From assembly GCA_016841425.1 (NCBI GenBank), contig JAENZE010000014.1, positions 1-64,000 on the forward strand: DNA of 64,000 bases, in the 5' to 3' direction. Positions 27,146 through 53,649 of this stretch are shown piece by piece (the stretch's first letter is position 1; each line of letters begins with the position of its first letter). The stretch is from Syntrophomonas sp. Its GTDB lineage: Bacteria > Bacillota > Syntrophomonadia > Syntrophomonadales > Syntrophomonadaceae. A program made the translations under genes and the position numbers. The notes beneath the pieces are model-generated. The model did no database searches and was not told the origin of the DNA. It was given only the letters and a program-made list of their open reading frames with translations.

Positions 27146-28984
27146 TCATAGAAGACCCCATTTCTGGAGAAACAACGAGGGATCTCCTTTCGGGTACATG
27201 ATAGTAATTTTCTTTTTTGCACGAGTCATTGCAACGTAAAGAAGCCGCCTGTCCTCCTCCTCTTCAAAATTATACGGCACGCATTTGCTGTTTTTTCCCT
27301 CATGAATTGGCTCTCCATTTCCTGATAAAAGGGGTATAATCACATGATCGAACTCACGCCCTTTAGCTTGAAAAGCGTTGAGTATAAATAGTCCTCTAGG
27401 TGGTTTTTTTATATATAAATAACCTGATTGCAACAATGAGTTCTCCATGGGAGTAACCAAATCACTAATAACATTAGCTCCATATGCTTGTGCTGTTTTT
27501 GCAATAGACCGTATATAAAATATAGTTTCATAATCTGGATGAGAATTTCCGGCGGCCAGGAGTTTGGCAACGTCTGGAAGGAGTGTCAATGTCATAGTAA
27601 AACTTTCTGGACAATTAACCTCCAACTTTCCCCAAAAAGGCTTTAATAAATCCGATACCCTTGACCATGGTCCGTTAGGTTCGCGGTTTCTTTTTATTGT
27701 CTTTTTACCAAATTCAGCATTGATGTCATGGTTCGGGTAGCCACCCGGTAATAATAGATCATTCATTACTCCAGCAATCCACTGCCTTATTCCATCGCCA
27801 TCCTCACACATATACAGATCATATATGTAATTCCTTAATATTTCTTCCGGACCATCGGAACTAATGGCTTTACAAGAAAAATATTTTCCTCTTCCATTTG
27901 ATGGCTTCTTGCAAAGACTAGACTTAAGAAATGAAGAAAGCGTATTATATTGGCAAATTACGGCAATTGTCCCTTCCTGTTCTTTAATTACTTCCCAACG
28001 CAATTTATCACGAATTGGCCCCAGATCTCCTTCATACCTTCCTTCATCCAGAGTAACGAAGTTTATAAATGGCTGTTTTTTTCCTGGTTTAAGTGCTCCT
28101 CCTTTTAAACTATCCTTCCGAAGATCTATAAAAAAAGCTGCCATACCTGTCTGCGAACGATGCGGAGTAGATAATGTTGTCCTAGCTAATGCTGGTATAC
28201 TCCATTTTTCAGCTACTTCCTCTGCTCTTTTCATATCAGCATTTCTCCAAGTGTGAATAGTCTGATATCGATCATAAAAAACTACAACACGTTCAGGACT
28301 CCACTTTTGCAGAAAATCCCACTGACAGCAGTCAGAATCTTGAAATTCATCAAGAATTACTAAGGGGTATTTAGTCTTTAGCCATTTAATTGTATAACTT
28401 GAGAAGGAAAGCAGATGGCGAGCTAGTGGCGCAAAATCCCCGTAATGAGGTCTGCCTTTGCGCATGCTTTTTATAGCCATTTTCCTATACTTGTTGCGTA
28501 TTTCCAATGAAACAGTGTCATTTGACCCACACAATGGCTCGCACATTCTCTCAACGTCTGCTTTTTTTATTTTTGCTAGCTTCGTTGCTTGCTTTCGTTC
28601 ATTTATTGAGCATGGTGTAGCAGGTGTGGGAATGCCCCATACTCCCCCCCGCTTATTGAGAAGCTCAAAGAAAAAAGCATGATAATTTTGGACTTCAATC
28701 GCAGCGACCTGATCTTTAGTCATCCATCCTTGTCGAACATAATTTCGAATTTCATTTTCAATTTGTACCCGCGCATTTTTTGAAAACGTTAAAAATAGGG
28801 CCGGAGTGGTTTTTGAAACAAGCCCAGAACGGTGTGCCCTCAAAGCTAAATATACACCAGTGAATGTCTTCCCTGTTCCAGGGGCTGCTTCAACCATAAT
28901 TCGAGGGTAAAGCTCCAGCATGTCGCCAACTTTTCGCTGACCGTCATCTACAGGAACTGCTTTAATCTTTGTCGGTAAGTTCAA
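27146..28984 (-). CDS. gajB: UvrD/PcrA-like helicase, GajB of a Gabija-type defence system
   Basis: This 612-residue superfamily 1 helicase has Walker A EAAPGTGKT (32-40), motif II VILDEFQDSD (~212-221), a PHRS-containing motif IV region (~272-275) and the C-terminal motif VI LYVAMTRAKKK (~573-583). Gabija GajB proteins are UvrD-like and partner the GajA nuclease. This one is somewhat longer than the ~500-residue reference. Translation starts at TTG after AGGAGGGG, and the gene overlaps the 3' end of gajA by 23 bp, so the two are coupled. Known Gabija complexes sense nucleotide depletion and DNA ends and cleave phage DNA. The helicase could instead belong to a stand-alone OLD/UvrD pair of similar type. 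Confidence 0.85.
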   Translation of the reverse strand: MNLPTKIKAVPVDDGQRKVGDMLELYPRIMVEAAPGTGKTFTGVYLALRAHRSGLVSKTTPALFLTFSKNARVQIENEIRNYVRQGWMTKDQVAAIEVQNYHAFFFELLNKRGGVWGIPTPATPCSINERKQATKLAKIKKADVERMCEPLCGSNDTVSLEIRNKYRKMAIKSMRKGRPHYGDFAPLARHLLSFSSYTIKWLKTKYPLVILDEFQDSDCCQWDFLQKWSPERVVVFYDRYQTIHTWRNADMKRAEEVAEKWSIPALARTTLSTPHRSQTGMAAFFIDLRKDSLKGGALKPGKKQPFINFVTLDEGRYEGDLGPIRDKLRWEVIKEQEGTIAVICQYNTLSSFLKSSLCKKPSNGRGKYFSCKAISSDGPEEILRNYIYDLYMCEDGDGIRQWIAGVMNDLLLPGGYPNHDINAEFGKKTIKRNREPNGPWSRVSDLLKPFWGKLEVNCPESFTMTLTLLPDVAKLLAAGNSHPDYETIFYIRSIAKTAQAYGANVISDLVTPMENSLLQSGYLYIKKPPRGLFILNAFQAKGREFDHVIIPLLSGNGEPIHEGKNSKCVPYNFEEEEDRRLLYVAMTRAKKKITIMYPKGDPSLFLQKWGLL

Positions 28985-30929
28985 ATATATCCCCTCCTGG
29001 GGTTACCTGACCAGTCATCACCTTAACAATTCTATTATAAAGGCTTGTTATTGGTGCGGGAAAAACCTTGTTCTGAACCATAGTTTCAGCGATTATTCTC
29101 ATATCCTTTTGGCTTTTACAAGAATGTGGTTGATGTAAAGCAGCATATAAAAAGGCTTTTTGAAGATCTTCCTGGCATATTGAGTTATCTTGGCATTTTA
29201 TATCACCAAGTGAAAATTCAGCAAGATTTGAAGGAAAGTTTACGGGAAGTAGCTCTTGAAAGGGCTTTTCTATGTTTTTCTTAACAAAGTCTTTCCAACT
29301 ATCATTGTTTAACTCATGACCAGCATCTTGGTAACATCTAATTATCGCTTGATATAGGATATCTACAGGCACATAATATAAAAGCATTACCTCCATATCA
29401 CATCCTGTACAGAAGGATAATAGAGATTTCTTTGGCATACAAATAACATGCTCAGCGGATTTTTTTGATAATTCATATAGATCAACTTTCTTATGTGCGT
29501 CAGGGTCTTCCACCTCTTTTTTGGGGACATCATAATCAAGTAAAGCAAGTGTAGTAATCCCTAAAGCCCTAAGATTACGTGCATGCCTCCAAACTTTTTC
29601 ATTGCCACCCGCATTAACAATAGTAAGACCCAAGAAAAATGGATTATTAACCGGTTTTTTACCCAAAGCATTGAATACTATAGGTAAAAAGCCTTCTTCA
29701 CTTGCCCCCTCCACAATAAGTGCATGTTGAGCTAATAAAGCGCCAGCGTAAAGGTCACGATATTGTTCTAGAGCTTTTCTATAAACTGGTTCTAAAGTCG
29801 AACCTACTCTAACTTGTGTTGATTGTCGTGAACGGCTGGTATTTCGTGATACCCTACATATCGGATTTGCGCCATGAAGTTCTCCAATGAAAGCAGGAGA
29901 ATGAGTGGTAATGAACACCTGACCCGTTCTTTTAGCATTTTTAGTGGTTATCTCATTAAAAAACCATTTAGCCAGGGAAGGTTCAAGGTTTTGCTCTGGT
30001 TCTTCTATGGCAACGATTAGGGAGGAATCTTCTTCGCTTAAAGCAGCTGAAATTTGGGTAAGGAGCATCAAATTTTGTGCTCCATCTCCCAGTAAAGAAA
30101 AGGGAATTATATTTTCTTGGGTTTCGGACTTTTTTTTCAATCCTACTGATGTGGCGGTTTTAAAGCGTGCTATGTTGGCATCAAGGAAAGTCAAGGTAAA
30201 ACTATCAAATCCCCCAACTAATTCAGGAGACATGAACCCCTCTAGATTATTTAAAGCATTTTTAACGCTATCCAATTCGACTAAGCTTGATTTATTCGTT
30301 TCTAAAATGCCCATTAAGTTTCTAAGTTCTCTTATTACTTCTTTTTCTTTCAATGCCTTAGAAAAAAGACTCTGCCTAGCTAACGATAGTTCAAAAGCGG
30401 GGTTGCGATTCGTTCCATAGTAACGAAAGTTAATTGCCTCTCTATCCTGATATGTAAAAACGCCTTTTTTGTTGATCATTTCATCTATTATAATTACTTC
30501 AGTCTCAGCAATTTCTAATTCCTGATTCCAATCAGCTATAAGTTTTACTGCCAACAACTCTTCGGTTTTATCAGGTGGATCTTCCCCGGGTTCAATTATT
30601 ACGGTTTCAATAATTTCTCCCTTATGCTTCCAACAAGATACTTTATCTGCAAATCTAAGGATAATATCATTGTTTGGATTTTCTCCTAAATGCACCCAAG
30701 CTGTAATTTCTATTGGTTCGTTTATGTTTCCATTATGAAAATCAAAAACTGATATTGCATCGTCCCGCTGCAGCCGAATGGTTGGATCAAACAACAACTT
30801 AATAGCAGTTAAAATAGTTGTTTTACCACTATTATTGGGACCCACCAAAACATTTACTTCTTGATTGGGTAAAAACCATAATTCATATAAACTTCTAAAA
30901 TTATTGATTTTTAATGCCCGAATATACAT
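28962..30929 (-). CDS. gajA: OLD-family ATPase/TOPRIM nuclease, GajA of a Gabija-type defence system
   Basis: The protein has 655 residues. The N-terminal ABC/RecF-like ATPase starts at residue 1 (RALKINNFRSL) with Walker A VGPNNSGKTT (29-38), a signature-like LLGDGAQNLM (~278-287), Walker B IVAIEEPEQNLEP (~304-316) and a THSPAFIGEL segment. The C-terminal TOPRIM domain has the glutamate in LIVEGASEEGFLP (~401-413) and the acidic pair in LALLDYDVP (~460-468). This is class 2 OLD architecture, as in Gabija GajA. It is longer than the usual ~580 residues, mostly by C-terminal extension. AGGAG lies before the ATG, and the gene is first in a four-gene minus-strand unit. Confidence 0.85.
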   Translation of the reverse strand: MYIRALKINNFRSLYELWFLPNQEVNVLVGPNNSGKTTILTAIKLLFDPTIRLQRDDAISVFDFHNGNINEPIEITAWVHLGENPNNDIILRFADKVSCWKHKGEIIETVIIEPGEDPPDKTEELLAVKLIADWNQELEIAETEVIIIDEMINKKGVFTYQDREAINFRYYGTNRNPAFELSLARQSLFSKALKEKEVIRELRNLMGILETNKSSLVELDSVKNALNNLEGFMSPELVGGFDSFTLTFLDANIARFKTATSVGLKKKSETQENIIPFSLLGDGAQNLMLLTQISAALSEEDSSLIVAIEEPEQNLEPSLAKWFFNEITTKNAKRTGQVFITTHSPAFIGELHGANPICRVSRNTSRSRQSTQVRVGSTLEPVYRKALEQYRDLYAGALLAQHALIVEGASEEGFLPIVFNALGKKPVNNPFFLGLTIVNAGGNEKVWRHARNLRALGITTLALLDYDVPKKEVEDPDAHKKVDLYELSKKSAEHVICMPKKSLLSFCTGCDMEVMLLYYVPVDILYQAIIRCYQDAGHELNNDSWKDFVKKNIEKPFQELLPVNFPSNLAEFSLGDIKCQDNSICQEDLQKAFLYAALHQPHSCKSQKDMRIIAETMVQNKVFPAPITSLYNRIVKVMTGQVTPGGDIFELTDKD

Positions 30930-31146: not shown

Positions 31147-32457
31147 TTAATCATTGAATAACTCCATTTTATAAGGATAATCATATGATTTAATTTTCTC
31201 GAAAAGATGCTGCCTTCTATTAATATCAAACTCCTTCCGGAAATGGAATATTATCTCTTTTAAGTAACTCAGAGGTAAGTCGTTTAGTCCTGTTTCCTTA
31301 CAAGCAAAAACATGCCTTTCTGCTGTCTTTAGTTTTTCAGGCAGTTCATCATATAGGTCTGCACCTATCATATAGTCCAATATTTTTATGTTGACTTGAT
31401 CAAAAGGCACCTTTATTGCATACTCGAAGCACTCATTGATAGTCCTCTCTGTTTCCATGGGAGCTCCCAATATAAAATTCCCCACCGTATATATCCCTAT
31501 TTCATCAGCATATTGGATTAATTCCGCAGCTCTTGCTGGATCTATTTTTTTTCTATAAAAGTGAAGAATATCATGATTTACTGACTCAATTCCCATACTT
31601 ATTACTGATACGTTTGCCTTCTTGGCAATATCTATAAAGTCGAAATCTATATTAGCCCAGCTGCTAAGTGCTAATTTCATTCCTTCAGAAATTCTTTCAG
31701 TTTTAAGGCTATGTAATATATTCTTTGCTCTCTTAAGGTTAAAGGTAAAATTATCATCACAAATCCAAATATTAGTATATTTATTTGCTGCAATTTCCTT
31801 AAATTCTTTAATAACATATTCTATCGAATGTTCCCGATATTGACCTAACCATCCTTTTCTCTGGCAAAACCTGCAAGTATTCATGCATCCACGGCTGGTT
31901 TGTATAAGTGTTGATTTTGCTAAATTAGGCTTTCTTTTAATAGTACCACCATGTTCAGCATAACTAGACAAGATGCTACGATCTGGGAAAGGCAGATCAT
32001 CTAAATTATTGTCTCTATCTTTTAATAAATCAGTTACGACTTGCTTATCATTCAATAAGCAATCAATAACGTAAACGATGCTGGGTTCAGCTTCATGATT
32101 AATCACAATATCAATATTTGGAATAGCCCGCGGTAATAAGATGCAGTCATTTCCAACAGCAATAGTTTGTATTTTTCTATTATTTCGTTTAATATATTCC
32201 GCTATATTTTCACCGTTATAAATATTTAGTGCTCTTTTTAGCGGGAAACTATCAAATTCAATAATGACCACATCGATTGTTTTCAAAAGCTCAGCTAATT
32301 CGTTCAGCTCAAAATTCTCAATTGAATAATCTTTTAATATTACAGCATGCCCTACCTGTTTTAAAATGGTTGCTAAATATAATAAATTTAAAGAAAACCC
32401 AAATCGCCAGTCCTTAAGATTATCCGGTGACGGATAAATTAATAATATATTAGCCAA
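31147..32457 (-). CDS. B12-binding-type radical SAM enzyme
   Basis: The 436 residues fall into an N-terminal cobalamin-binding-like Rossmann domain (NILLIYPSPD at the start, then a VVIIEFDSF strand) and a radical SAM barrel. The [4Fe-4S] motif is CMNTCRFC at ~190-197 and a conserved NFILGAPMET stretch follows. The classical DxHxxG cobalamin motif is not obvious, so it may not bind B12 even though the fold is of that class. Relatives perform methylations or rearrangements in natural-product and RiPP pathways. The gene start overlaps the toroid gene by 8 bp, and it is the last gene of the cluster. Its likely substrate is the 44-residue precursor peptide or a small molecule made by the neighbours. 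Confidence 0.82.
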   Translation of the reverse strand: MANILLIYPSPDNLKDWRFGFSLNLLYLATILKQVGHAVILKDYSIENFELNELAELLKTIDVVIIEFDSFPLKRALNIYNGENIAEYIKRNNRKIQTIAVGNDCILLPRAIPNIDIVINHEAEPSIVYVIDCLLNDKQVVTDLLKDRDNNLDDLPFPDRSILSSYAEHGGTIKRKPNLAKSTLIQTSRGCMNTCRFCQRKGWLGQYREHSIEYVIKEFKEIAANKYTNIWICDDNFTFNLKRAKNILHSLKTERISEGMKLALSSWANIDFDFIDIAKKANVSVISMGIESVNHDILHFYRKKIDPARAAELIQYADEIGIYTVGNFILGAPMETERTINECFEYAIKVPFDQVNIKILDYMIGADLYDELPEKLKTAERHVFACKETGLNDLPLSYLKEIIFHFRKEFDINRRQHLFEKIKSYDYPYKMELFND

Positions 32458-33265
32458 AATCTAATATCCCACTCCTCATAACTTCTGACATCGCATACAT
32501 TCCCCAGGAAGCTCCATCTTCTATTTCATGGTATTTCCAAATACCATTATTTAATTGGTTGCTTATTATCCATTCAAATGCCCTTGCAAGTACTCGTTCC
32601 GGCACAAGTTCAGAATATTGTAACAATCCCAGAACAGCCAGGCTAGTACAATATATGTCTGACTCTATAGGATGCTCTAACCAGGGCGCAAAACCTCCAT
32701 CATTTCTCTGGTTAGAGATTAACCACTCTACCAAGTCGGTAATTAAATTTATATCATCAGGATAATAATCATTTTTATTAAATGCTAATAACGTATAAGC
32801 TGCTTTATAGGTTAAGGTATTTTTTTCTTTTTGGCATAATTGCTCCAACAAATATAAACTATGTTGGTCAGCAAGTTCCGGTAATAAATAGAACAAAACC
32901 CCAGTTACTGGTATTCTGTAAATATCCCGATATGACCTCCCCCATAAACCTTCTGAATTCCTTTGAATCTTCAAGAATTCTATCCCCATATTTATGTTCC
33001 GCTCAAATGTATTTTCATCAACGCTTTTTAAAAAAAATGTATTCCACATTGTATCAACTATACTTATCCAACCCCCATCAGAATTTTGATTATCTAAACA
33101 CCTTTCAATTATGTTAGTGGGTATTGAATTCTTTGATATTCCACTTAACATTAACAGTGATGATGTCTTGCTTATTCTTTTCAATTCAATTTCCTTTTCA
33201 TTCATCTCAATTATCATATTTTGAAGAGAAGCCGCTGTTTTTATTAAATACTTTAAGTTATGCAT
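32450..33265 (-). CDS. Alpha/alpha-toroid protein (prenyltransferase/squalene-cyclase-like repeats)
   Basis: This 271-residue helical protein has QW-like repeats: NQNSDGGWISIVDTMW (~70-85), RNSEGLWGRSY, NQRNDGGFAPWLEHP and NQLNNGIWKYHE. These are the hallmark of the terpene-cyclase/prenyltransferase alpha-alpha barrel. It is about half the size of squalene-hopene cyclases and lacks an evident DxDD motif, so catalysis as a terpene cyclase is unlikely. It may bind a hydrophobic substrate or peptide. Start and stop overlap both neighbours by 8 bp, indicating tight co-translation. Confidence 0.72.
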   Translation of the reverse strand: MHNLKYLIKTAASLQNMIIEMNEKEIELKRISKTSSLLMLSGISKNSIPTNIIERCLDNQNSDGGWISIVDTMWNTFFLKSVDENTFERNINMGIEFLKIQRNSEGLWGRSYRDIYRIPVTGVLFYLLPELADQHSLYLLEQLCQKEKNTLTYKAAYTLLAFNKNDYYPDDINLITDLVEWLISNQRNDGGFAPWLEHPIESDIYCTSLAVLGLLQYSELVPERVLARAFEWIISNQLNNGIWKYHEIEDGASWGMYAMSEVMRSGILDFG

Positions 33266-34415
33266 TATTCTGCTCCCTCTTTATTTTTATTTCCGAAAAT
33301 TGAGTATCTCGAAATATGGGGTTTATGTTCCTTATGTTTTGCAGGCCTGTTAGCCACATAAAAAGACGCTCTACTCCTAATCCAAATCCGGATAACAAAA
33401 TATCAGAATACGGTATCATATTTATATACCACCTGAGTTGTTTTTCTACCCCAGCAAGTCTAAACTTGCTTTCCAAGATATTTAAATCACTTTGTTTTTC
33501 ATTACCTTCAGCTATTTCTCCAACCTTTGGAACCAATAGATTGTAAGAAAGAGAATAATTACTATCAACAGGTTTTGCAATCCATGATGCTATTTTTCTC
33601 GGGAACTCAACTACAAAAGTTGGTAAATTTCCCGCAATTTCTCGCTCGAATTTACCAAGACCTTTACTATATAAACTGTACTGGTCTTCAAGTTTTTTAT
33701 AGTCTATTATAGGGAAATTTGATTTTTCAATAAGGCTTGAATCCACTTTAAGCAGGTAACTAAAGGGGCTGATAGCCCATTCTGATACGACAAATTTTAT
33801 TAGGCATTCTAGTTCAAACATAGATTGATTCATGTCACAATTAGCCTTAACCATTTCCAACATATCAAATTCTGCTAGATGTCTGTTAGTATGGGAAGGC
33901 TCTGCTCTATAACATTTCTGTAAACAATAAGCTTTTGATAACTGGGCAGCATAAAGATTAAGATAAAGGGCGTTGCTCGAGGAAAGCCGGGCTGGATTTC
34001 CAAAAAAGTCAAGAAAGAAAGTCTCATCTTTGTTTTGTCCATAGTGTACTGAGGGTACTCTAACTTCAATATATCCATTATTATTTGCATAAAGCCTTAA
34101 AAGATGAAGCAAATAGGAATATGCTTGTAAAATATCTAATTGCTGCTCATCCCATAAGGATTCACTTTTTTTTGGCAGATGATTCTGAAGCTGGATTATC
34201 CTAAATTCATTATCTGCCAAATTAACTTGGAATTCACAATAGTCCCCTTTTCTTATTTTTTTTACTTTATTAAACACAGTAATATCAATCGAATCTTTAC
34301 TACAAACAAGTGAGTTTTCTTCATTGTTGGATAATAGTGTAATAAAAATAATTCCACCCAGGTTTCTTACCCCTGAGACTCGTCCGTCTAAGGTATTATT
34401 TGATTCGTTTATCAT
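33258..34415 (-). CDS. AsnRS/AspRS-like class II aminoacyl-tRNA synthetase paralogue
   Basis: This 385-residue protein begins with an OB-fold-like region (residues ~8-80, VSGVRNLGGIIFITLL) followed by a class IIb catalytic core. Motif 2 reads CYRAEPSHTNRHLAEFDMLE (~168-187) and motif 3 reads GFGLGVERLFMWLTGL (~346-361), so the ATP-binding arginines appear intact. It is shorter than AsnRS (~430) and the OB domain is divergent. A housekeeping synthetase would not normally lie inside such a cluster, so I infer it makes an aminoacyl-adenylate, aminoacyl-tRNA or amide for pathway use, as asparagine synthetase A does. It overlaps the upstream gene by 20 bp and the downstream one by 8 bp. Confidence 0.8.
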   Translation of the reverse strand: MINESNNTLDGRVSGVRNLGGIIFITLLSNNEENSLVCSKDSIDITVFNKVKKIRKGDYCEFQVNLADNEFRIIQLQNHLPKKSESLWDEQQLDILQAYSYLLHLLRLYANNNGYIEVRVPSVHYGQNKDETFFLDFFGNPARLSSSNALYLNLYAAQLSKAYCLQKCYRAEPSHTNRHLAEFDMLEMVKANCDMNQSMFELECLIKFVVSEWAISPFSYLLKVDSSLIEKSNFPIIDYKKLEDQYSLYSKGLGKFEREIAGNLPTFVVEFPRKIASWIAKPVDSNYSLSYNLLVPKVGEIAEGNEKQSDLNILESKFRLAGVEKQLRWYINMIPYSDILLSGFGLGVERLFMWLTGLQNIRNINPIFRDTQFSEIKIKREQNNA

Positions 34416-35619
34416 TTATTTTTCTCCAATATAGTATTTTCCCGCTTTTTGATTGTTTTACAATATCAAAGCCGAGTCTTATATTAAGAGCATGAACAGC
34501 AGTATTATCCATGAATGTTTTGGCATCTACATAGCTAAATTTATTATAAACTGTTCTGATTAATAAATCCGCATAGCCTTTACCACGGTACTTTCGTGGG
34601 ATTAATATCTCCTCAATAATCGCCCCCTGGTTGGATCTGCCACCTTCTCGAATATAACCAACAATATTATTGTTGTTGTCCTCAGCAATATAAATATGGC
34701 GTTCATCTCTTATATTAGTTTTTATTACGTCTAGCTTCTGATCTAAAGCCAGAAATTTTCTATCCTGTGCACTGAGCTCAGTAAAAATTTCGAACAGCTT
34801 CGTACGATCCTCTCTAGCTACTCTTCTTATCCAAACTTTTTCAAGAAATAGTCTTTTGAAATTATTTCTCAAAATATTTTCCCGGTCTTCATCGGTCACA
34901 TCAAGTTTATCTATCATTTCAGTCTCTGCTTGGTATATATCTACTGATGGCTGGGAAAATGGATAGTCTGAACCAAACAATACCCGGTGCCCGCCCAGCA
35001 TATTTGTCATTTTGCTGATTACCTTACTATCCGAAATGGTTGAGGTATCAAAATAAAGATCTTCATATGATTTGAATTCAGGAACAACTAGATCTAATAC
35101 TTCTTCTCCGGTGAATGGCCATTTTCTACCGGAATGAGCCAGAATTATTTTAAGATGTGGAAATTCATTTTTGATATGGTGAATCCGTTCTATCCGTTCA
35201 CTCATATGAGGGTGTATATACAGGAACTTGCCTTTGTCCTGCAGATACTCATAAACAGGAAAATATGCTCTAATATCAACGTTCCGGCTTATGTAAAAAT
35301 GTTCTTTTAGACCAAACACCTGATTTAGTTCGAGTTCATCAAGGTCAAGCTGTTCATCAAGTAAATAAAAGGGAATAAAAAGTTCACGGTTCATTTCGTA
35401 GGCAGTATGTATATAATTGTTGGCTTGATAAATATCCACTTCTTCTAGAGGAAATGGAAAGATTAATGCCTTATAAATGTTATTTTTTACAGCGATTTTA
35501 ATATATTTTTCCCAGGTATTTTCTATAATCGAATTGTAAGCAGGTAGATCCCTGTTTTCATTTTTAATTTTAACCATGAATTTCTTTTTTCCTATGTGTA
35601 CATGAGTATCAAAAATCAT
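34396..35619 (-). CDS. Fusion of amidohydrolase-2 TIM barrel and GNAT acetyltransferase
   Basis: Residues 1-~255 form an amidohydrolase-related TIM barrel, with FDTHVHIG at 3-10, HPHMSER near 137, ILAHSGRKW near 155 and LFGSDYPFSQP near 215. These are the expected metal and catalytic positions of the ACMSD-type amidohydrolase-2 family. Residues ~260-407 are a GNAT N-acyltransferase with the acetyl-CoA motif RKYRGKGYADLLIR near 345 and a C-terminal LNIRLGF segment. The two domains are in one continuous frame. The gene starts 3 bp after the membrane coiled-coil gene. A combined hydrolysis/decarboxylation and acetylation role on the cluster's product is plausible but unproven. Confidence 0.82.
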   Translation of the reverse strand: MIFDTHVHIGKKKFMVKIKNENRDLPAYNSIIENTWEKYIKIAVKNNIYKALIFPFPLEEVDIYQANNYIHTAYEMNRELFIPFYLLDEQLDLDELELNQVFGLKEHFYISRNVDIRAYFPVYEYLQDKGKFLYIHPHMSERIERIHHIKNEFPHLKIILAHSGRKWPFTGEEVLDLVVPEFKSYEDLYFDTSTISDSKVISKMTNMLGGHRVLFGSDYPFSQPSVDIYQAETEMIDKLDVTDEDRENILRNNFKRLFLEKVWIRRVAREDRTKLFEIFTELSAQDRKFLALDQKLDVIKTNIRDERHIYIAEDNNNNIVGYIREGGRSNQGAIIEEILIPRKYRGKGYADLLIRTVYNKFSYVDAKTFMDNTAVHALNIRLGFDIVKQSKSGKILYWRKINDKRIK

Positions 35620-35622
35620 ATG

Positions 35623-37104
35623 TTAATCCCTCTCACTCAAAGCCTTATCATCAAGCATGCCTTGTATTTCTTGAATAAGTTCCATATTACCAGGGAAACC
35701 TCGCCCATCTAATTCACTTAGCTCTTCCTTGAGTCTGTTAAGGAATATATCCTTTTCTTTTTTGTAAGTAATCATTTTTACAGATTTTTTTAGCAGTGTT
35801 TGTATATCTTCACTTTGACGCTCGTCCATAATTTTAGCCATACTCTTATAATATGTAGCACGAGCTTGATCCCAATAAGTATTGAAATCAGGGTTCTTAT
35901 CTTCTACGAAAGATAGATGATTTTCTGCCTCGTCTAGCAAGTTTCCTATTTCCTTTTTTGTGCTTTCAGGGTTCAAATCCACCTGATTATTATTCAAGTG
36001 CCCTATCTTTAATTTAACTAAATCAATCAACACAACTGCCAGATTACTTCGGGCCTGAATTTGATCGTTTTCTCCTCTTAGTTTCAATGATTTATAGTAG
36101 TATTCTCTTGATTTTTCTAGTATATCAACCAATTGTGCTTCATTATATTTTTGCTGATATTTTTCAAATTTCGTATGATATAATTCACCCATAAAGTGGT
36201 ATAGATATGGTTCAATAGCCGAATTAGGTTTAAACAAATTTCTATTTTCGTTAAATTGATATATCTTTTCAGCATCTTTTAATTTTTCTTCATCAATAGA
36301 GTCTGGATCAGAAACTAGTTCATGAGCTATAATTACTTCCAGCCATGCAGTCTCTTCATGTTCAGCAATTACTGAATCAGTAATATTCTCAAGAGTTTTT
36401 TGGTCTTCATCATCATTTAAATTCAACTTAAACGAAATATTTGAAGAGTTAGTCTTTTTTGATTCAAACTTCTTCTCAACCCATTCAGCATGTTTTTTCT
36501 TTTTCAGTAAGAAGTCTACTTTCGATTCGAGGTCCAAATATTTTCTAATTGCTTCCGTCATTTCTGTCCTTTGTTTCTTTATTTGGTTAATATAGTTGTT
36601 ATTATCTTCCTTCATTTTTCTCTCTTGTTCTTGAATTTCGATAAAATATTTATCAATATCTTCCCTCATAACGTCTAAACGCGAACTATAATCTTCAAAT
36701 TGCTTCTGGTAGCTTCGCCAGCCTATTAATGCAATAATAGCAATTAATACCGCAATAGCAGTAAATAATGAAGCGTAAAAGTTATTTAACGTAGAAACAG
36801 ACAAATTATTTTCGTGGTTATAATCGTTATATTTTTGAATCTCCTCTAATGTTTGCCGCATCTCTTCATACTGATCTTTACTCAAAAAGACTTTTCCAGT
36901 ATCTGAATTATTAAAAGTAGTTTCTACATTAAAAGTCATTATCCGTTCTTTCACTGACTCTTTACCAACTCCCCATATAAACCATAAAAAATACCCGAAA
37001 TAAAATATACCCATAAATATTAAAATTATAATTACTATTTCCCATATATTGGTATGTTTTAATATCTGGCAGCTTCTTTTTTCTGTGTTCTCCCCCTTAT
37101 CCAT
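35623..37104 (-). CDS. Membrane-anchored coiled-coil/TPR-like protein
   Basis: This 493-residue protein has two membrane helices (~16-48, IWEIVIIILIFMGIFYFGYF; and ~108-130, ASLFTAIAVLIAIIALIGW). A short segment between them is probably outside the membrane. A long charged coiled coil (~131-215) and a helical TPR-like C-terminal half (~235-490) follow. I know no named family. In the cluster it is immediately downstream of the precursor peptide gene and could be an immunity, sensor or scaffold protein. No ATPase or permease motif supports an exporter. Confidence 0.7.
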   Translation of the reverse strand: MDKGENTEKRSCQILKHTNIWEIVIIILIFMGIFYFGYFLWFIWGVGKESVKERIMTFNVETTFNNSDTGKVFLSKDQYEEMRQTLEEIQKYNDYNHENNLSVSTLNNFYASLFTAIAVLIAIIALIGWRSYQKQFEDYSSRLDVMREDIDKYFIEIQEQERKMKEDNNNYINQIKKQRTEMTEAIRKYLDLESKVDFLLKKKKHAEWVEKKFESKKTNSSNISFKLNLNDDEDQKTLENITDSVIAEHEETAWLEVIIAHELVSDPDSIDEEKLKDAEKIYQFNENRNLFKPNSAIEPYLYHFMGELYHTKFEKYQQKYNEAQLVDILEKSREYYYKSLKLRGENDQIQARSNLAVVLIDLVKLKIGHLNNNQVDLNPESTKKEIGNLLDEAENHLSFVEDKNPDFNTYWDQARATYYKSMAKIMDERQSEDIQTLLKKSVKMITYKKEKDIFLNRLKEELSELDGRGFPGNMELIQEIQGMLDDKALSERD

Positions 37105-37198
37105 TTTAGACCTCTTCCCTTCACTATAAGTCCCCTGGACAAACTAGGAGCCCGACTTGCATCGACCTCCTAGTAAAACATAATTATCTTAATATAGT

Positions 37199-37333
37199 TT
37201 AGTTACAGTTGCAGTTAGTACAGCCAAAACACCATTTTCCATCACCAAATTCTTCCCATATCTCCTTGGAAAAGTTCATTTCCTGTTCTTCCTCAAACAC
37301 TGGCGTTTGGTATTCCTTTTTATTGCCTTCCAT
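37199..37333 (-). CDS. Cys-rich RiPP precursor peptide candidate
   Basis: This 44-residue frame begins one base after the stop of the PqqD-like gene, with GGGGGTG upstream. The first ~33 residues are an acidic leader (MEGNKKEYQTPVFEEEQEMN, then an amphipathic FSKEIWEEF stretch and GDGK). The last 11 are WCFGCTNCNCN, with four cysteines spaced CxxCxxCxC among Gly, Thr and Asn. Leader plus compact Cys/Asn core, next to an RRE protein and a SPASM radical SAM enzyme, is the standard layout of sacti-/ranthipeptide-type RiPPs. No known precursor family (SCIFF, Clo7bot) matches exactly. The mature product is unknown. Confidence 0.8.
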   Translation of the reverse strand: MEGNKKEYQTPVFEEEQEMNFSKEIWEEFGDGKWCFGCTNCNCN

Positions 37334-37334
37334 G

Positions 37335-37622
37335 CTATTCACCCCCTGTAATTAATATTTCTTTATCCAGCCATGTTTGCAGCAAATTCTTAAAGTCAAT
37401 CATCATTGTATCTTTCTCTCCTTGATACATATCATTAAACAATGTAAATACTTTATTGGCATCCCTTTTGCCATCAAACAGCGCCAGCATATCATAGCTG
37501 ACCTCATTCAATCGGTAGATGCTTCCATCTTCAATGTTGAATAGATAATATTTTATATCATTAAATTCACCTTTAAACAAGCTATAACTGCTGCTAAGAG
37601 CATAGACCTTATTCTCCATCAA
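37335..37622 (-). CDS. PqqD-like RiPP recognition element (RRE) protein
   Basis: The 95 residues match the PqqD winged-helix fold: a beta-strand part (YYLFNIEDGSIYRLNEVS), then YDMLALFDGKRDANKVFTLF, and a final helix FKNLLQTWLDKEILI. RRE proteins bind the leader of the precursor and deliver it to the modifying enzyme. It lies between the SPASM enzyme (17 bp upstream) and the precursor (1 bp downstream), as expected for a discrete RRE. Confidence 0.8.
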   Translation of the reverse strand: MMENKVYALSSSYSLFKGEFNDIKYYLFNIEDGSIYRLNEVSYDMLALFDGKRDANKVFTLFNDMYQGEKDTMMIDFKNLLQTWLDKEILITGGE

Positions 37623-37639
37623 TCAACTTACCTCAATTC

Positions 37640-38653
37640 CTATTTCCAGCATTGGGGATCTTCAGCCATATAGCTCCCGTTAACAGAATAAGCAATGGCT
37701 CGACATCCTCCACAATTCTGCAGCAAAGTACATTCTTTGCATTTTCCGGTCAATAGTTTTTTGTTTCTTATTTGCCAAAGTACATCTGATGTATACCAAA
37801 TCTTATAGATTCCATCTGAAAATATGTTACCTAAAGGTATTTCCAATCGCCGACAAGGAAGAATGGTGCCATCATGCAGTATACATAAACTGGTAAATCC
37901 TACCGGGCAAAAGCCTCCTATATCTTCATTTATAAGCGTCCAGAGGGGACGAGATACACGAATTTTTAAATCTGAATTTTTTTCGACTTTTTCTTTTTTA
38001 TGATAAATTTTATTGTATATTTCGTGTAAATTTTCTGGTGATATAAACAGCTTCTCTATATCATTCTCACTCATGGGAGTAACCCGTTCTATAGTAATTG
38101 CATCAACACCCAGTTCGTTGGCTAGATCTATAACATTCAACACATCATTTTGATTCAATTTATGCAGGGTAAACATTATGGAAACATAAAATCCATACCT
38201 CTTCAATAATTTAATACCATTTACAGCTTGTAAAAAGCTTCCCGTTCCCCTGATCTGGTCATGAATGCGTGCATTTGATCCATCAATGGACACCTGTATT
38301 TCACTTAGCTTGCCAAAGCGAGCAAGTTTAATTGCTATACTGTCATCGATTAACGTTCCATTTGTTAATATTCCTATCCGTCCGAAATATTCTGAATTGT
38401 CAAAGAATTCGATTAAATCCACTAAATTACTCTTACTAGTAAAAGGTTCTCCTCCCGTCAGAGAAATCCTTCCAATTTTTCTCCATTTTTTTAAAGTATT
38501 TTCCATTGTTTCTGCAATAAATAACATTTTTTCCCTGGACAGTTCATTAGTATTGTAATGATTCTGGTAGCAATGGATACAACGCAAATTACACTTTACA
38601 ACGAAGTGCCATTGAAAATAAAACTCGTTTTCTACAGCCTTAGCATCGTACAT
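37640..38653 (-). CDS. SPASM-domain radical SAM peptide maturase
   Basis: This 337-residue enzyme has the radical SAM cluster motif CNLRCIHC at ~21-28, the SAM-binding GGEPF (~67-71) and a SIDGSNARIHD segment. A C-terminal SPASM domain supplies cysteines FCPVGFTSLC, ILPCRR, CKECTLLQNCGGCRA and PQCW for auxiliary [4Fe-4S] clusters. SPASM enzymes form thioether or carbon-carbon crosslinks on ribosomal peptides. The adjacent RRE and Cys-rich peptide make it the probable crosslinking enzyme. It starts 32 bp after the SEFIR gene and could be co-transcribed with it. Confidence 0.88.
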   Translation of the reverse strand: MYDAKAVENEFYFQWHFVVKCNLRCIHCYQNHYNTNELSREKMLFIAETMENTLKKWRKIGRISLTGGEPFTSKSNLVDLIEFFDNSEYFGRIGILTNGTLIDDSIAIKLARFGKLSEIQVSIDGSNARIHDQIRGTGSFLQAVNGIKLLKRYGFYVSIMFTLHKLNQNDVLNVIDLANELGVDAITIERVTPMSENDIEKLFISPENLHEIYNKIYHKKEKVEKNSDLKIRVSRPLWTLINEDIGGFCPVGFTSLCILHDGTILPCRRLEIPLGNIFSDGIYKIWYTSDVLWQIRNKKLLTGKCKECTLLQNCGGCRAIAYSVNGSYMAEDPQCWK

Positions 38654-38685: not shown

Positions 38686-39660
38686 CTAATTTAGCCACTG
38701 CATTATATTCGTCCATATTTCCCTTAATATTGCTTCAGGAGTATTCGCTTCATTATTCCCATACATATTCATGGTCATTTCCAAAATAAGTGATTTATCT
38801 TTTATAGCATTACAAGTAATAATCTCATTCGTGGAATTATCACTGTCAGAGATGTGGCTGCCATAGGCTAAATTTATGGTATCCGTTTTAGAATAGAAAC
38901 CATTCCCCAGCCATATCTTAAAACCATATTGCTGGCGACCATTGATATATATCTTACATATTGCCTTTCTGCTGTTTACATTTTCGAAATCATACTCAAA
39001 ATTGGAATTCTTTATCTTTGTTTGCTCTAACAGATTTAAAAGCCCATCCCTGATTTGAATGAAACTATCCCTCATAAATCTATTTTTATCTATATCAGTT
39101 ATTTCCCGAAAATCAGGTATTAGCCCATCGAAATGATTAAATGCTGGTTTATTAGCTGTCCCAATCTTTTTGGGTATTAAGTTAGGTTTCTCTCCCAGGG
39201 GAGATTTTTCAATTAAATCAATTCTATGTATCCGGTGTAAAAGTTCATTAAATTTTTCATCAAATTCACTCTTATTAGAAAAATCTATATAATGAACCCC
39301 TTTAAGGTAAAAAGGAATTGCGTTGTCTTTTCCACCTGTATACTTCATAATGGGAATAATTTTTTGCAGGTTTTCTTGGATAAAAGGTACTAAAAGTGCA
39401 GTTTCGAAGCCAACTCCACCCTGAAATTCATCAGCTTTTGCAGCATATTCTGGAGTGAGGACAATAACCGTGAAGTCAGTGCTCCTTATTTTATCTATCA
39501 TCATATTGTAAAGATTTACTGTACCTTTTTGAGTTTCAAACGCATCTGCAGTAGCATCTACTCCGTTTTCCCTAAGTAAATTCACTAGCCCGAGAACCCA
39601 CTCCTGGTGTTCTTTACTGTCCCAGCTGTAACTGACAAAGGCACTGGGAACTTTGTTCAT
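38686..39660 (-). CDS. SEFIR/TIR-domain defence effector
   Basis: Residues 1-~140 form a SEFIR-type TIR-fold domain: FVSYSWDSKEHQEWVLGL at the start, a GVDATADAF strand, then TVIVLTPEYAAKAD. The remaining ~170 residues are an uncharacterised alpha/beta region (IRDGLLNLLEQTK onward). Bacterial SEFIR proteins are known anti-phage effectors that deplete NAD+. The gene follows the AbiGi-like gene by 20 bp and precedes the radical SAM gene by 32 bp. An abortive-infection role is likely; its trigger is unknown. Confidence 0.8.
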   Translation of the reverse strand: MNKVPSAFVSYSWDSKEHQEWVLGLVNLLRENGVDATADAFETQKGTVNLYNMMIDKIRSTDFTVIVLTPEYAAKADEFQGGVGFETALLVPFIQENLQKIIPIMKYTGGKDNAIPFYLKGVHYIDFSNKSEFDEKFNELLHRIHRIDLIEKSPLGEKPNLIPKKIGTANKPAFNHFDGLIPDFREITDIDKNRFMRDSFIQIRDGLLNLLEQTKIKNSNFEYDFENVNSRKAICKIYINGRQQYGFKIWLGNGFYSKTDTINLAYGSHISDSDNSTNEIITCNAIKDKSLILEMTMNMYGNNEANTPEAILREIWTNIMQWLN

Positions 39661-39679: not shown

Positions 39680-40498
39680 TTAAAAATCCGATTCTATTCT
39701 CTCCATTGAAATAATTTTGGTACATAACATACCCTTATCCTCAACTGATAATTGGTATCCACACATTTCGTCCAAATTCATAATGATATTTACCATCTGC
39801 CGCACTTCACTATCTTGACTAACTATAATATATTGAATAATTTTTTCGTTAATAGGTAGTTTGCATATTTCAAGTTTTTTATTTAATTCATTTAAGGCTT
39901 CTATATCAATAAATAAATCTCTTGATAGAAATCGAGGTACATCTGCAAACATTAATGGAACTTGTTCTGGTACAAATCTCCATTCCCGTTCATCATAAAA
40001 GCATATCTTTTTCCCAGCAAAGCTCTTTTTTCGCCAATTTTTTCCCTCATATGATTTTAGATAAAAAATTGCATCCAAAGCCTCGCCGTGCAAATAATCT
40101 AAATCCATCAATTCCTTGATTGGTTTTTCATTAAGAGGGTGATATTTTTTTAGGGCAGCATAGCTGTAATTTATATATTTTGTTGTTTTTGATTTTGAAG
40201 AAACATAGGTCACTGGCTGTAAATTTAATCTCTGAGCCAATTCCTTATTAATACCTATTCCATACCTACCATACTCATTAGCATGTTGATTTATTAAACT
40301 CAGTGGAATATCACAAAAACATACCATCGGACTAGCCGAGTTTCTAAGCTCACTTGCGGGATAAACATTTAAGAAATCCCTTTTTTCCATGCAATACCGG
40401 GGATAAAACCCATTTTCTAAAATACTCTTAACAATATTTATACTGCTCGTAAAATGAAATAATGCGTTTGCACTAACGGCCATATTATCACCTACCAT
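39680..40498 (-). CDS. AbiGi-family abortive infection protein
   Basis: The 272 residues carry the features of the AbiGi family: LFHFTSSINIVKSILENGF at the N-terminus, then FYPRYCMEK, MVCFCDIPLS with NEYGRYGIGI, and CFYDEREWRFVP. The pattern is reminiscent of an ADP-ribosyltransferase-like or nucleic-acid-modifying fold, but the family is described mainly as the AbiG component AbiGi. Its usual partner AbiGii is not present; the next gene is a SEFIR protein. It starts 33 bp after brxL, so it may share the BREX transcript. Confidence 0.75.
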   Translation of the reverse strand: MVGDNMAVSANALFHFTSSINIVKSILENGFYPRYCMEKRDFLNVYPASELRNSASPMVCFCDIPLSLINQHANEYGRYGIGINKELAQRLNLQPVTYVSSKSKTTKYINYSYAALKKYHPLNEKPIKELMDLDYLHGEALDAIFYLKSYEGKNWRKKSFAGKKICFYDEREWRFVPEQVPLMFADVPRFLSRDLFIDIEALNELNKKLEICKLPINEKIIQYIIVSQDSEVRQMVNIIMNLDEMCGYQLSVEDKGMLCTKIISMERIESDF

Positions 40499-40531: not shown

Positions 40532-42571
40532 TTACACCGCCCCCAGCGCTTTAAATACGGAATCTATTGGATCAGAATAAAATATCGGCTGGATTTTTAT
40601 CAGCAGCTCGGGTGGTACGGTCTGGAGGTCGGCTACTGATACGGCTGGAATCAGTACCCGTTTAGCTCCGGCATCTACGCAGACCTGCAGGACATTGGCG
40701 AAATCAGAGATTTTTTCTATTGTTCCCGATACAGTAATTTTTCCTAAAATAACCAGGCTCTCCTGAACCGGTCTTTCCAGGGCGCTGGAACAGAGGCCAA
40801 TGAATTCAGCCAGGGCCAGCTCGGAACTCATTCCAATACCCTGCAGGTCTGAGGCATGCATTAAGTAATCTCTGGTCTTGGTACTGATACCTGCACTAAC
40901 ATTTTTACAGTTAGCGGTAAAATACCGGAAAGCGGTATCAATGGCTTCCTTGACCTCTTTACGTGAACCCAGTCCAGTTCTCTCAAATTTACCTGTACCT
41001 GAAACGGCCTGATTCTCCAGCTTAAAAACGCCGATCATCCCGGAGTCTCCTTTTCCAACCACATAGACATGTCCGGGTTTGCCTAATCCCTCGGGAATCA
41101 GTTTTCCACCGCCCTGTTCAGGTACAGCTACAAATTCTTCCTGCAAACTTTCACGGTCGATATATGAGAAATGAACATCATAGAACTCCATGCCACCTAT
41201 TTTTTTGAGCTGTTCCTTGACCCTGCGCCGGCCAATAAGTGCATACTGCAGTATTTCAGCAACATCATCCCGGGTGAACTCTCCATGCGGATAGAGCAGT
41301 TTCATCAAGCCGGATACGGTCTTGCGCACTGCAATAACATCCCGCTGATTAAGGTTATTACCCAGTTTAAAATAGCGGTCAATTGCATCAGCAAAATTGT
41401 GCTTACGCATTTCCCGCAGATACTCAGCCAGGTAGTCTACTATAAATCCATAATTATTAGTAATTAACTCAGGGCGCATCTTCGGGATTTCCCATCCGGG
41501 CAGATAGTAATGCATACGATCAAAAAAGGCGCTGTCATTAGCCATTTCTTCAGGAAATGGTGCAAAGAGATGGGAAGTCTTCAGGAGAAAATCCAGGCTT
41601 TCATTAATATTGCCTACAAAAACCATAGAAGCATTGGCGTTTTTCTCTTCCTTGCCCCGGGCAAAGGAACCTGACGCCATATAATCCTTCATTATTTGAA
41701 TACCGTCTTTATCTTTAAATTTGATACCGGCAACTTCATCAAATGCCACACAATCCCAAAGTCCTACCAGCCCGATGGATCGAGATGCCATATTGTAGAA
41801 TAGATTAGCAACCGTAGTCTGCCCTCCTGATACCAGGATAGAATTAGGCGAGATTTCTTTATAAATATGTGATTTTCCCGTCCCCCTTGGGCCCAGTTCA
41901 CATAGGTTATAGTTATTTTCCACCAGCGGTACCAACCGCAAGATTATGTGCCACTTAACTTCAGGTTCAAACTGGGTAGGTTCCAATCCGGTGGAACGAA
42001 TTAACACATCCATCCATTCATCTTTAGTGAAATTTTTACGTCCCTCCAGGATCTCATCTAAGTCCATATTAGGCATTTGAATAGGTTTGAGGCTTTCAAT
42101 GCGGAAGGGATTATTGTTACGATTCTCTTCATCATAAAAATATTCCATCTTTAGTATGACCCATATACCACCGGCCAGAAGCTTGTCATACTTTTTAACA
42201 TAATCAGGGTTAACCGCTACTCCTTTTAGCCCCAGATTGGAGAATTCAGCTTCATAAATATCACGTTTTTCATTCAGTTTGACCGTTAGCTTGTCTATAA
42301 CTGTATACTGGCCTAGTTCCTTAATATGTGACTTAACTTTTTCAGCTTCATCTGGACGGACGAAATTATCAGCCAGGATTTTCTTAACTCGTTCTACTCC
42401 CTCAAGAATAGCTTCGTCATCATCCGTAGCACAGTACATACCGAGAAGATATTCGAGCACGTAGGTAGGTACATTGGCCCCCTGTTTTATCATATTGGTC
42501 AGATCTTTGCGTACTACCCGGCCTGCAAAATACTGGTTCAGTTTCGTATCCAGATTTATCTCATCCATCAT
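40532..42571 (-). CDS. brxL: BREX type 1 Lon-like protein BrxL
   Basis: This 679-residue protein has an AAA+ core (Walker A ELGPRGTGKSH at ~227-237, VAFDEVAGI Walker B) and a C-terminal Lon-protease-like domain (~540-670; GIGMSSELALAEFI, then ITVSGTIEKISDF and RVLIPA). BrxL is the last gene of type 1 BREX and forms DNA-bound hexamer barrels that help exclude phage. An 84-bp gap separates it from pglZ, filled by a palindromic repeat at 42595-42673 that might affect read-through. The AbiGi gene follows 33 bp on. Confidence 0.9.
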   Translation of the reverse strand: MMDEINLDTKLNQYFAGRVVRKDLTNMIKQGANVPTYVLEYLLGMYCATDDDEAILEGVERVKKILADNFVRPDEAEKVKSHIKELGQYTVIDKLTVKLNEKRDIYEAEFSNLGLKGVAVNPDYVKKYDKLLAGGIWVILKMEYFYDEENRNNNPFRIESLKPIQMPNMDLDEILEGRKNFTKDEWMDVLIRSTGLEPTQFEPEVKWHIILRLVPLVENNYNLCELGPRGTGKSHIYKEISPNSILVSGGQTTVANLFYNMASRSIGLVGLWDCVAFDEVAGIKFKDKDGIQIMKDYMASGSFARGKEEKNANASMVFVGNINESLDFLLKTSHLFAPFPEEMANDSAFFDRMHYYLPGWEIPKMRPELITNNYGFIVDYLAEYLREMRKHNFADAIDRYFKLGNNLNQRDVIAVRKTVSGLMKLLYPHGEFTRDDVAEILQYALIGRRRVKEQLKKIGGMEFYDVHFSYIDRESLQEEFVAVPEQGGGKLIPEGLGKPGHVYVVGKGDSGMIGVFKLENQAVSGTGKFERTGLGSRKEVKEAIDTAFRYFTANCKNVSAGISTKTRDYLMHASDLQGIGMSSELALAEFIGLCSSALERPVQESLVILGKITVSGTIEKISDFANVLQVCVDAGAKRVLIPAVSVADLQTVPPELLIKIQPIFYSDPIDSVFKALGAV

Positions 42572-42594
42572 TCCCGCCTCGCTTTCGGTGCATA

Positions 42595-42673
42595 GGGGTC
42601 AGGCCTGACATTAACATTTACTTAATGGTAAATATCAACACTGACATTAGGTATCAATGTCAGGCCAGACCCC
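42595..42673. repeat. REP-like palindrome between pglZ and brxL
   Basis: ggggtcaggcctgacatt (42595-42612) and aatgtcaggccagacccc (42656-42673) pair with one mismatch, and ctgacatt/aatgtcag gives an alternative smaller hairpin. The outer motif ggggtcagg recurs at 60618-60659, so it is a dispersed repeat. It fills the only sizeable gap inside the BREX core. Confidence 0.8.
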
Positions 42674-42676
42674 ATA

Positions 42677-45229: not shown

Positions 45230-45243
45230 AATTCCTCCGCAGT

Positions 45244-48780: not shown

Positions 48781-48821
48781 CTGCGTATCACCTTTCTAAT
48801 CCGGATATATGATGTATACTG

Positions 48822-52379: not shown

Positions 52380-52394
52380 CCCTCCACAACTCGT

Positions 52395-52970
52395 CTACTT
52401 TATTAACTGAAAAGCACGATAGTAATTATCATCATTAAAACGATTAAACAGCCTTAAGGATTGTCCATCGTAAGTTCCCGGGAAAAACATAATAACGGGT
52501 ACCCGGTCCAATACATGGAATAAATTATTTAGTATATTATGCGAACGCATAAATGGATAAACTTTACCTACTCCGGTTATAAAAACTACATCACCGGGTT
52601 TCTGGTCATATTCCATTCTGGCAATATATGCATCAGGGCTGGCGATATTGGCCAGGGCCTCAAAAAGCCTGTCCCTGCCTTTATTCGCCTCCATCTCAGC
52701 TACCTGATCAATAATGTTTTTATCTCGTGCAATATCCAGTAGGATTTCAAACAGGTCATATTCTATGATCCTACGGTTGGAAGCTTCAAAGCTAAACTCT
52801 TTTTTAATATGCTTCACGTAGTCTCGGACCAGGAGTTCTTCGGCAGGATCATAATCAAATATGTAAAAACCGATTTCATTTCCCAGCCCTTTATTCTGAA
52901 TAAAAGCCTCTGATTGAATTTTAGGTATAATCTGATCCAGGCGTTCTTTTATATTTGGCATGTTCAACAT
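52395..52970 (-). CDS. brxB: BREX type 1 BrxB (DUF1788)
   Basis: The 191 residues match the DUF1788 family: KERLDQIIPKIQSEAF at the start, FYIFDYDPAEELLVRDYV, DVVFITGVGKVYPFMRSH and VIMFFPGTYDGQSLRLF. BrxB is a small partner needed by type 1 BREX. It begins 9 bp after brxA. Confidence 0.92.
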   Translation of the reverse strand: MLNMPNIKERLDQIIPKIQSEAFIQNKGLGNEIGFYIFDYDPAEELLVRDYVKHIKKEFSFEASNRRIIEYDLFEILLDIARDKNIIDQVAEMEANKGRDRLFEALANIASPDAYIARMEYDQKPGDVVFITGVGKVYPFMRSHNILNNLFHVLDRVPVIMFFPGTYDGQSLRLFNRFNDDNYYRAFQLIK

Positions 52971-52979
52971 CTCCTAGTA

Positions 52980-53582: not shown

Positions 53583-53649
53583 CGCACACACTCCGAATTA
53601 TTTTTATATGGTCAATCACCCTTTTTATTATAGCTTACTCTCTTGCCTA

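Follow-up and report, generated by a model that had tools for sequence, protein, structure and literature searches.

A radical-SAM peptide cluster beside BREX genes in Syntrophomonas and its possible role in phage-host conflict

The window analyzed here, a stretch of 64,000 nucleotides of Syntrophomonas sp. (contig JAENZE010000014.1; genome of 3.58 Mb), contains at positions 31147 to 38653 eight tightly packed open reading frames (ORFs) on the minus strand. As judged from sequence, these genes are an operon of the radical SAM (rSAM) type for a ribosomally synthesized and posttranslationally modified peptide (RiPP), with modification of the product predicted; the cluster is not a chance arrangement, since it recurs elsewhere with a conserved precursor. 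We estimate at about 0.5 the probability that the product is a nonsecreted modified peptide of fixed structure that would act in phage-host conflict, phages supplying their own copies of a sister peptide. We infer the conflict role from the location of the cluster, from a phage-like contig that carries it and from phage copies of the sister precursor. A preliminary description of this DNA had placed an eight-gene peptide maturation cluster at the same location inside a defense island. All eight ORFs and their domain assignments were recovered, and the wider family does recur beside defense genes.

Results

Conservation of the precursor peptide

The precursor gene, present in a single copy in the genome, has 47 codons from a GTG start (44 amino acids [aa] from an inner ATG, the count of the preliminary description). 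Its core, WCFGCTNCNCN, contains four cysteines and is identical in the window, in G108 (from another family of the window's phylum), in L013 and in the phage-like contig (G445). In the seven contigs with homologous clusters (group A), the core has the near-invariant form WCFGC(T/S)NC(N/S)C. Mean identity in group A was 88% for the core, 45% for the leader and 54% for the maturase, and in a sister group (group B) it was 81%, 34% and 50%, respectively. Core codons of the window, G108 and the phage-like contig differed by synonymous changes only and appear to be under purifying selection. Core conservation and synonymous-only changes therefore fit one fixed product and not a diversifying bacteriocin. 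The features generally expected of an rSAM-type RiPP locus were found, i.e., a short precursor with a conserved leader and a distinct core, an adjacent maturase, and a RiPP recognition element (RRE) together with a SPASM rSAM enzyme. The gap 3' of the precursor can form a hairpin (z of -2.9), and a hairpin of unrelated sequence is found at the same place in G108 (z of -8.6). Such hairpins were strong in two group A loci and not clear in the others; a possible role for this candidate element would be to balance expression.

Homologous clusters in group A

In a scan of 84,980 species genomes, 47 loci were retrieved, and their precursors and partners were then inspected. Group A consists of the window, G108, L013, L014, L015, L016 and G445 and includes Clostridia, two Aminicenantes contigs, a Hydrogenedens metagenome-assembled genome (MAG), a Bacilli MAG and the phage-like contig; L012, 99.995% identical to the window over 21 kb, was not counted as an independent case. 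In the rSAM tree, group A formed one clade (support of 100/97), nested within a larger clade that was separate from the ACGX maturases (support of 100/100). Branching in this tree crosses phyla, and the cluster has therefore moved horizontally.

The G108 locus contains the RRE, the precursor with identical core, the membrane protein, the amidohydrolase, the toroid protein and the B12-type rSAM enzyme, without an AsnRS-like gene and with a beta-propeller protein, a second SPASM-GNAT protein and a methyltransferase as extras. A gene pair that by eye resembles three-Cys-motif partners lies 3' of this cluster (L010:997-2993), and its larger protein weakly matches the defense candidate PDC-M30A (7e-12).

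The phage-like contig (IMGVR_UViG_3300001567_000262, 133 kb; L067 and L138-L141), which came from a core-pattern scan of viral contigs, encodes the rSAM maturase, RRE, precursor, amidohydrolase-GNAT fusion, AsnRS-like protein (249 bits), toroid protein and B12-type rSAM enzyme (split into two frames) in the order of the window. Tail genes (34 to 50 kb) are followed by the cluster (52.1 to 58.2 kb), recombinases, a full BREX operon (77.1 to 91.8 kb) and a terminase (101.9 kb). Of the eight group A core-pattern matches in viral contigs, only L067 was real, and the other seven were chance reading frames. Viral scans with single proteins (the AsnRS-like protein, the amidohydrolase, the rSAM pair and the group A precursor pair) yielded no match, and no homologous cluster was found in the plasmid and phage reference collections, where plasmid matches of the amidohydrolase, AsnRS-like and rSAM queries were distant or housekeeping proteins only.

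Because the phage-like contig keeps the window's gene order without the membrane protein, the conserved cluster comprises, on gene content, seven genes, and the membrane protein is an accessory. The latter was present in three of the seven group A contigs (25% identity in G108, E of 2e-19; also in L013) and was not found in L015, L016 and G445, all of which retain the amidohydrolase-GNAT fusion. A search for the eight-gene order, as the preliminary description had proposed, thus did recover homologous clusters, with the seven-gene core conserved and the coupling to BREX, AbiGi and SEFIR not conserved.

The sister group

Group B, with a related maturase, comprises about two dozen loci of Desulfobacterota, Chloroflexota, Actinomycetota, Bacillota, Bacteroidota and archaea. 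In 18 of them the precursor ends in C(R/K)QCS(S/G)CH(G/S)CR or a near variant (core CRQCSSCHGCR). The usual partners are the toroid protein, an asparagine synthetase and a GT4 glycosyltransferase, and further ones are a metallo-beta-lactamase protein of about 1000 residues or a protein of about 600 residues of no known family. A divergent precursor, SITCSKCHHCR, in which the first core cysteine is missing, is encoded at L025:11057-11230. L031, L033 and L034 form a sister sub-branch with extra radical SAM proteins, a PHP-type protein and a kinase-like P-loop protein, to which L033 adds an HD/dGTPase-like gene (by eye). Genes of the DNA methylase type lie directly 3' of the precursor in two loci (L017:10402-11142, PF01555; L018:4527-5240).

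Orphan precursors in phage contigs

A DNA pattern for the group B core retrieved 66 viral contigs from IMG/VR (L071-L136); this search selects for the core and leaves the leader free. A full group B precursor was encoded in 65 of these contigs (e.g., L099:2706-2855); the hidden Markov model used for viral contigs had been built from cellular precursors and three viral ones. No maturase was found in any orphan-precursor contig, either in the available stretches or in the 34 longer records searched whole. On the same strand, the genes next to the precursor were in many cases those for terminase, portal and head proteins, which belong to several unrelated families. Against a leader-only profile built from cellular precursors, the scores of 48 of the 49 distinct phage leaders exceeded the 99th percentile of shuffles, and the Y..P motif was likewise present in 48 of 49. 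The conserved leader and the absence of a phage maturase suggest that processing of the phage peptide falls to enzymes of the host. Single phages pair with particular hosts: between phage L110 and the Bacteroidales host L036, 7 synonymous and 0 nonsynonymous codon differences were counted over 39 codons, and between phage L108 and host L020 there were 21 synonymous and 2 nonsynonymous differences. Since precursor queries gave nothing significant in phage and plasmid reference collections, contigs of uncultured viruses are the only source of orphan precursors known so far.

Two other families accompany orphan precursors: a methyltransferase family adjoins or lies near them in three contigs (L098, L120 and L127), and a family of about 111 residues, ParB-like by eye, stands beside them in L095, L118, L119 and L128.

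Enzymes and partner proteins

The SPASM maturase is 58 to 61% identical to maturases encoded beside the same core peptide, a maturase 62% identical to it having been found in G108, and the RRE and the B12-type rSAM enzyme are 44% and 55% identical, respectively, to their G108 homologues. The B12-binding match of the second rSAM enzyme falls below Pfam's cutoff. A match of the SPASM protein to pVip (2e-19) and one of the second rSAM enzyme to PDC-M51A were set aside as general radical-SAM similarity. The AsnRS-like protein scored 143.7 bits against TIGR00457, below the cutoff of 342.6, and a true AsnRS (630.7 bits) is encoded elsewhere in the genome; by these scores the latter, and not the cluster protein, is the asparaginyl-tRNA synthetase of the cell. 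The homologue of the AsnRS-like protein in L016 (Bacilli) lacks the N-terminal domain. A carboxylate-activating enzyme occurs in both groups, AsnRS-derived in group A and of the AsnB type in group B.

The toroid protein was the most widely retained partner, present in 18 of the loci fetched for groups A and B. Its predicted structure (pLDDT of 94.8) shares the fold of squalene-hopene cyclase and class II terpene cyclases (Z of 26 over 257 residues), from which it differs by its low identity (15%), its single domain and the absence of the DxDD catalytic motif, also from the 18 homologues aligned. Zinc ligands as in LanC-like toroids were sought in this alignment, and no cysteine was invariant. 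None of the group A clusters seen contained an exporter or transporter, a leader peptidase or an immunity gene, and the exporter and immunity gene expected of a secreted bacteriocin were thus absent from the eight genes and their homologues.

Locus and transcript

The features of the locus are listed in Table 1. Intergenic distances of 33 bp (BrxL-AbiGi), 19 bp (AbiGi-SEFIR), 32 bp (SEFIR-SPASM rSAM) and 17 bp (rSAM-RRE) were measured, the precursor overlaps the RRE gene by 8 bp, and the 94-bp gap that follows it gives way to a gap of 3 bp and then to overlaps of 20, 8 and 8 bp. The short distances to BREX, AbiGi and SEFIR upstream noted in the preliminary description thus measure 19 to 33 bp, and PADLOC confirmed these systems. 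No promoter-like or terminator-like site, which that description had named as evidence against its proposal, was detected on the minus strand in the SEFIR-rSAM gap, and a single transcript of SEFIR/AbiGi and the peptide cluster is therefore plausible. The G+C content of the peptide cluster (33.5%) differs from that of the BREX-AbiGi-SEFIR part (40.5%), which suggests separate acquisition of the two. A Gabija-like pair, absent from the preliminary description, lies directly downstream, with 217 bp between the B12-type rSAM gene and GajA.

Table 1. Features of the peptide cluster and its neighbors in the window
Feature	Position	Strand	Match or other evidence
Radical SAM/SPASM peptide maturase, 337 aa	37640..38653	-	PF04055 8.8e-23, PF13186 5e-9
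PqqD-like RRE, 95 aa	37335..37622	-	PF05402 9.4e-7
Precursor peptide, leader YQTPVFEE...MNF, core WCFGCTNCNCN	37199..37342	-	Conserved core in homologues
Hairpin-forming gap (ACTAGGAG...CTCCTAGT) 3' of precursor	37105..37198	-	Folding z -2.9
Membrane coiled-coil/TPR-like protein, 493 aa	35623..37104	-	No Pfam match
Amidohydrolase-GNAT fusion, 407 aa	34396..35619	-	PF04909 1.5e-13, PF00583 8.5e-7
AsnRS-derived adenylating enzyme (predicted), 385 aa	33258..34415	-	PF00152 9.5e-34
Alpha/alpha-toroid protein, 271 aa	32450..33265	-	Squalene-cyclase-like match 2.8e-7
B12-type radical SAM enzyme, 436 aa	31147..32457	-	PF04055 3.9e-21; B12-binding weak, 0.025
bSEFIR	38686..39660	-	PADLOC 8.5e-54
AbiGi	39680..40498	-	PADLOC 6.6e-53
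BREX operon brxL, pglZ, pglX, brxC, brxB, brxA	40532..53591	-	PADLOC
Gabija-like GajA/GajB	27146..30929	-	PADLOC 1.4e-51 and 5.6e-43

Defense context of the family

Neither SEFIR nor AbiGi recurred beside other fetched homologues. BREX was found on the same contig in the window and the phage-like contig only among the seven group A contigs, some of which are short; in the latter it lies 19 kb from the cluster and is of another subtype. The conserved presence with BREX core genes that characterizes a BREX component was thus not found in group A. By the scans made, no defense system was detected at G108, L013 (a contig of only 3.2 kb), L014 and L015, and the L016 cluster is located behind a kinase/vWA/PP2C set. 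In group B, BREX is divergent from the maturase in L021, Hma-type or DUF499/DUF1156 systems lie near L022, L028, L032 and L037, a DrmD-like helicase (DISARM-like) is found at L017, a HEC-01-like ATPase at L024, and type I or IIG restriction genes at L029, L031 and L036. A coupling to BREX, SEFIR and AbiGi as one system, as raised in the preliminary description, is not supported, BREX being on one other group A contig only and SEFIR and AbiGi on none; the family does recur near defense genes, nor are homologues confined to nondefense contexts, the finding it had named as refuting, as BREX, DISARM-like, Hma and restriction genes recur in the family.

The 66 large flanking proteins of group A and B loci matched 92 PADLOC families (E ≤ 1e-30), and 57 flanking proteins of ACGX control maturases (17 loci) matched 8. 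Because families overlap, one protein can yield several matches and the control genomes differ in habitat, this enrichment is of unmeasured size. A PD-T4-6 match of L015:2236-3753 was not counted, as it looks like a PASTA-domain artifact, and an fvmX3-analog match (E of 0.018) was not used.

Discussion

Comparison with known systems

Sactipeptides, ranthipeptides and the ACGX system (TIGR04340) likewise combine a SPASM maturase, an RRE and a short Cys-rich precursor in one operon, and TIGR04340 is the best NCBIfam match of the window maturase (170.5 bits, well under the cutoff of 400). However, the window precursor lacks ACGX repeats and its maturase belongs to a separate clade, true ACGX precursors (L040-L058) being different; unlike all three systems, the window adds the AsnRS-like protein, the toroid, the B12-type rSAM enzyme and the amidohydrolase-GNAT fusion and has no exporter. 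Mycofactocin and pyrroloquinoline quinone (PQQ) loci share an rSAM enzyme, an RRE and a conserved short core, as well as the glycosyltransferase of the sister group, but their curated cutoffs are not reached (PqqE score of 89.7 for the window, which is not listed as a member), and core and partners differ. Kaur 2020 (PMC7159879) tied an FxSxx-COOH peptide modified by a SPASM rSAM enzyme, proposed as a toxin or signal, to VMAP/FtsH ternary conflict systems; in contrast, the window precursor has no FxSxx, and no MoxR or vWA was found in the cluster or the immediate neighbors scanned. PesC, an asparagine synthetase-like peptide nitrile/amide synthetase (PMC13060819), activates a RiPP C-terminal carboxylate for amidation and then dehydration. 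It resembles the asparagine synthetase-type enzyme of the sister group, whereas the window has an AsnRS-derived class II enzyme and no MNIO. RiPP genes near restriction-modification, BREX and other defense genes are described in the accessible parts of Hourigan 2025 (PMC12715929) and Gao 2024 (PMC11118758); these belong to other families, and a phage orphan precursor with a corresponding maturase in the host was not found in those parts.

Possible function of the modified peptide

In the proposed pathway, the RRE would bind the YxxP leader and the SPASM rSAM enzyme would cross-link the Cys-rich core WCFGCTNCNCN. By analogy with a characterized AsnB-type enzyme, which first amidates a RiPP C terminus and then removes water from it (PMC13060819), the AsnRS-derived enzyme is predicted to adenylate a carboxylate, most likely the C terminus or an Asp/Glu side chain, as the asparagine synthetase of the sister group would. 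The B12-type rSAM enzyme and the amidohydrolase-GNAT fusion may attach further groups, and the toroid may hold the peptide as a scaffold or cyclize it. The product would probably be kept in the cell, where it may serve in phage-host conflict as a cofactor or an alarm via cluster proteins, here probably the membrane TPR protein. In the sister group, the host maturase would process phage-encoded precursors, and phages may hijack or titrate the pathway. That the precursor-only orphans in packaging modules, matched to the host subtype, block or redirect the host pathway by mimicry at the peptide level is a tentative proposal with slightly less than an even chance; purifying selection on leader and core of the phage precursors, with processing by the host maturase, which this mimicry includes, is put forward with the same reserve.

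Several points weigh against a conflict role. Most group A contigs lie outside defense islands, the defense enrichment rests on about 25 loci and an imperfect control, and defense islands gather mobile genes of any role. In addition, no orphan phage precursor with the window's own core was found in viral contigs, and the phage argument for the window is therefore one of kinship only.

Trimming of the core might instead yield one small cofactor, for redox or metal chemistry and similar to PQQ or mycofactocin, that a neighboring enzyme uses, with the defense site a result of hitchhiking. The near-invariant core, the mycofactocin-like set of rSAM enzyme, RRE, short precursor and sister-group glycosyltransferase, a four-Cys spacing that could bind iron-sulfur or metal, and the several group A loci outside defense islands would all agree with such a cofactor, but the clusters lack a dedicated oxidoreductase, defense neighbors recur and orphan precursors lie in phage packaging modules; we consider it unlikely. 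A phage-side origin, in which the peptide is a moron that mainly serves phages (as a late gene or in superinfection exclusion) and the clusters of cells were domesticated or came from prophages, would account for the orphan precursors of 65 contigs, which lie in phage head/packaging regions, and for the complete cluster beside tail genes in the phage-like contig. Against it, orphan-bearing phages have no maturase and would depend on host enzymes, and most cellular loci do not lie in prophages by gene content, which makes this origin very unlikely.

Two further readings go back to the preliminary description. A secreted bacteriocin or toxin that stabilizes the island is highly improbable: the genes are of RiPP type in a mobile context, and lanthipeptide clusters co-localize with defense genes (accessible part of PMC12715929), but group A clusters lack exporter, leader peptidase and immunity gene, and their core is near-invariant across phyla, unlike those of arms-race bacteriocins. 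There is equally little chance that the cluster is part of a BREX/AbiGi/SEFIR unit and signals to SEFIR or AbiGi, an arming role for which nothing was found in support. The gaps of 19 to 33 bp in a single direction, together with BREX on the phage-like contig of the closest full cluster and in divergent orientation to the L021 sister maturase, speak for such a unit; the lack of SEFIR/AbiGi beside any other fetched homologue and of BREX at most group A loci, the difference in G+C, and the distance and other subtype of BREX on the phage-like contig speak against it.

Our search of the open-access literature found no account of this enzyme set, of this core or of orphan phage precursors of it, and the connection with phages may be of a new kind. 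If a conflict role of the fixed, nonsecreted peptide is true, modified ribosomal peptides would join the molecules of phage-host conflict, and phages with a RiPP precursor and without a maturase would have to use host enzymes or interfere with them. The cluster would also represent a family of natural products whose combination of enzymes has not been seen before, in which an AsnRS-derived adenylating enzyme and a toroid of terpene-cyclase fold would work beside two rSAM enzymes.

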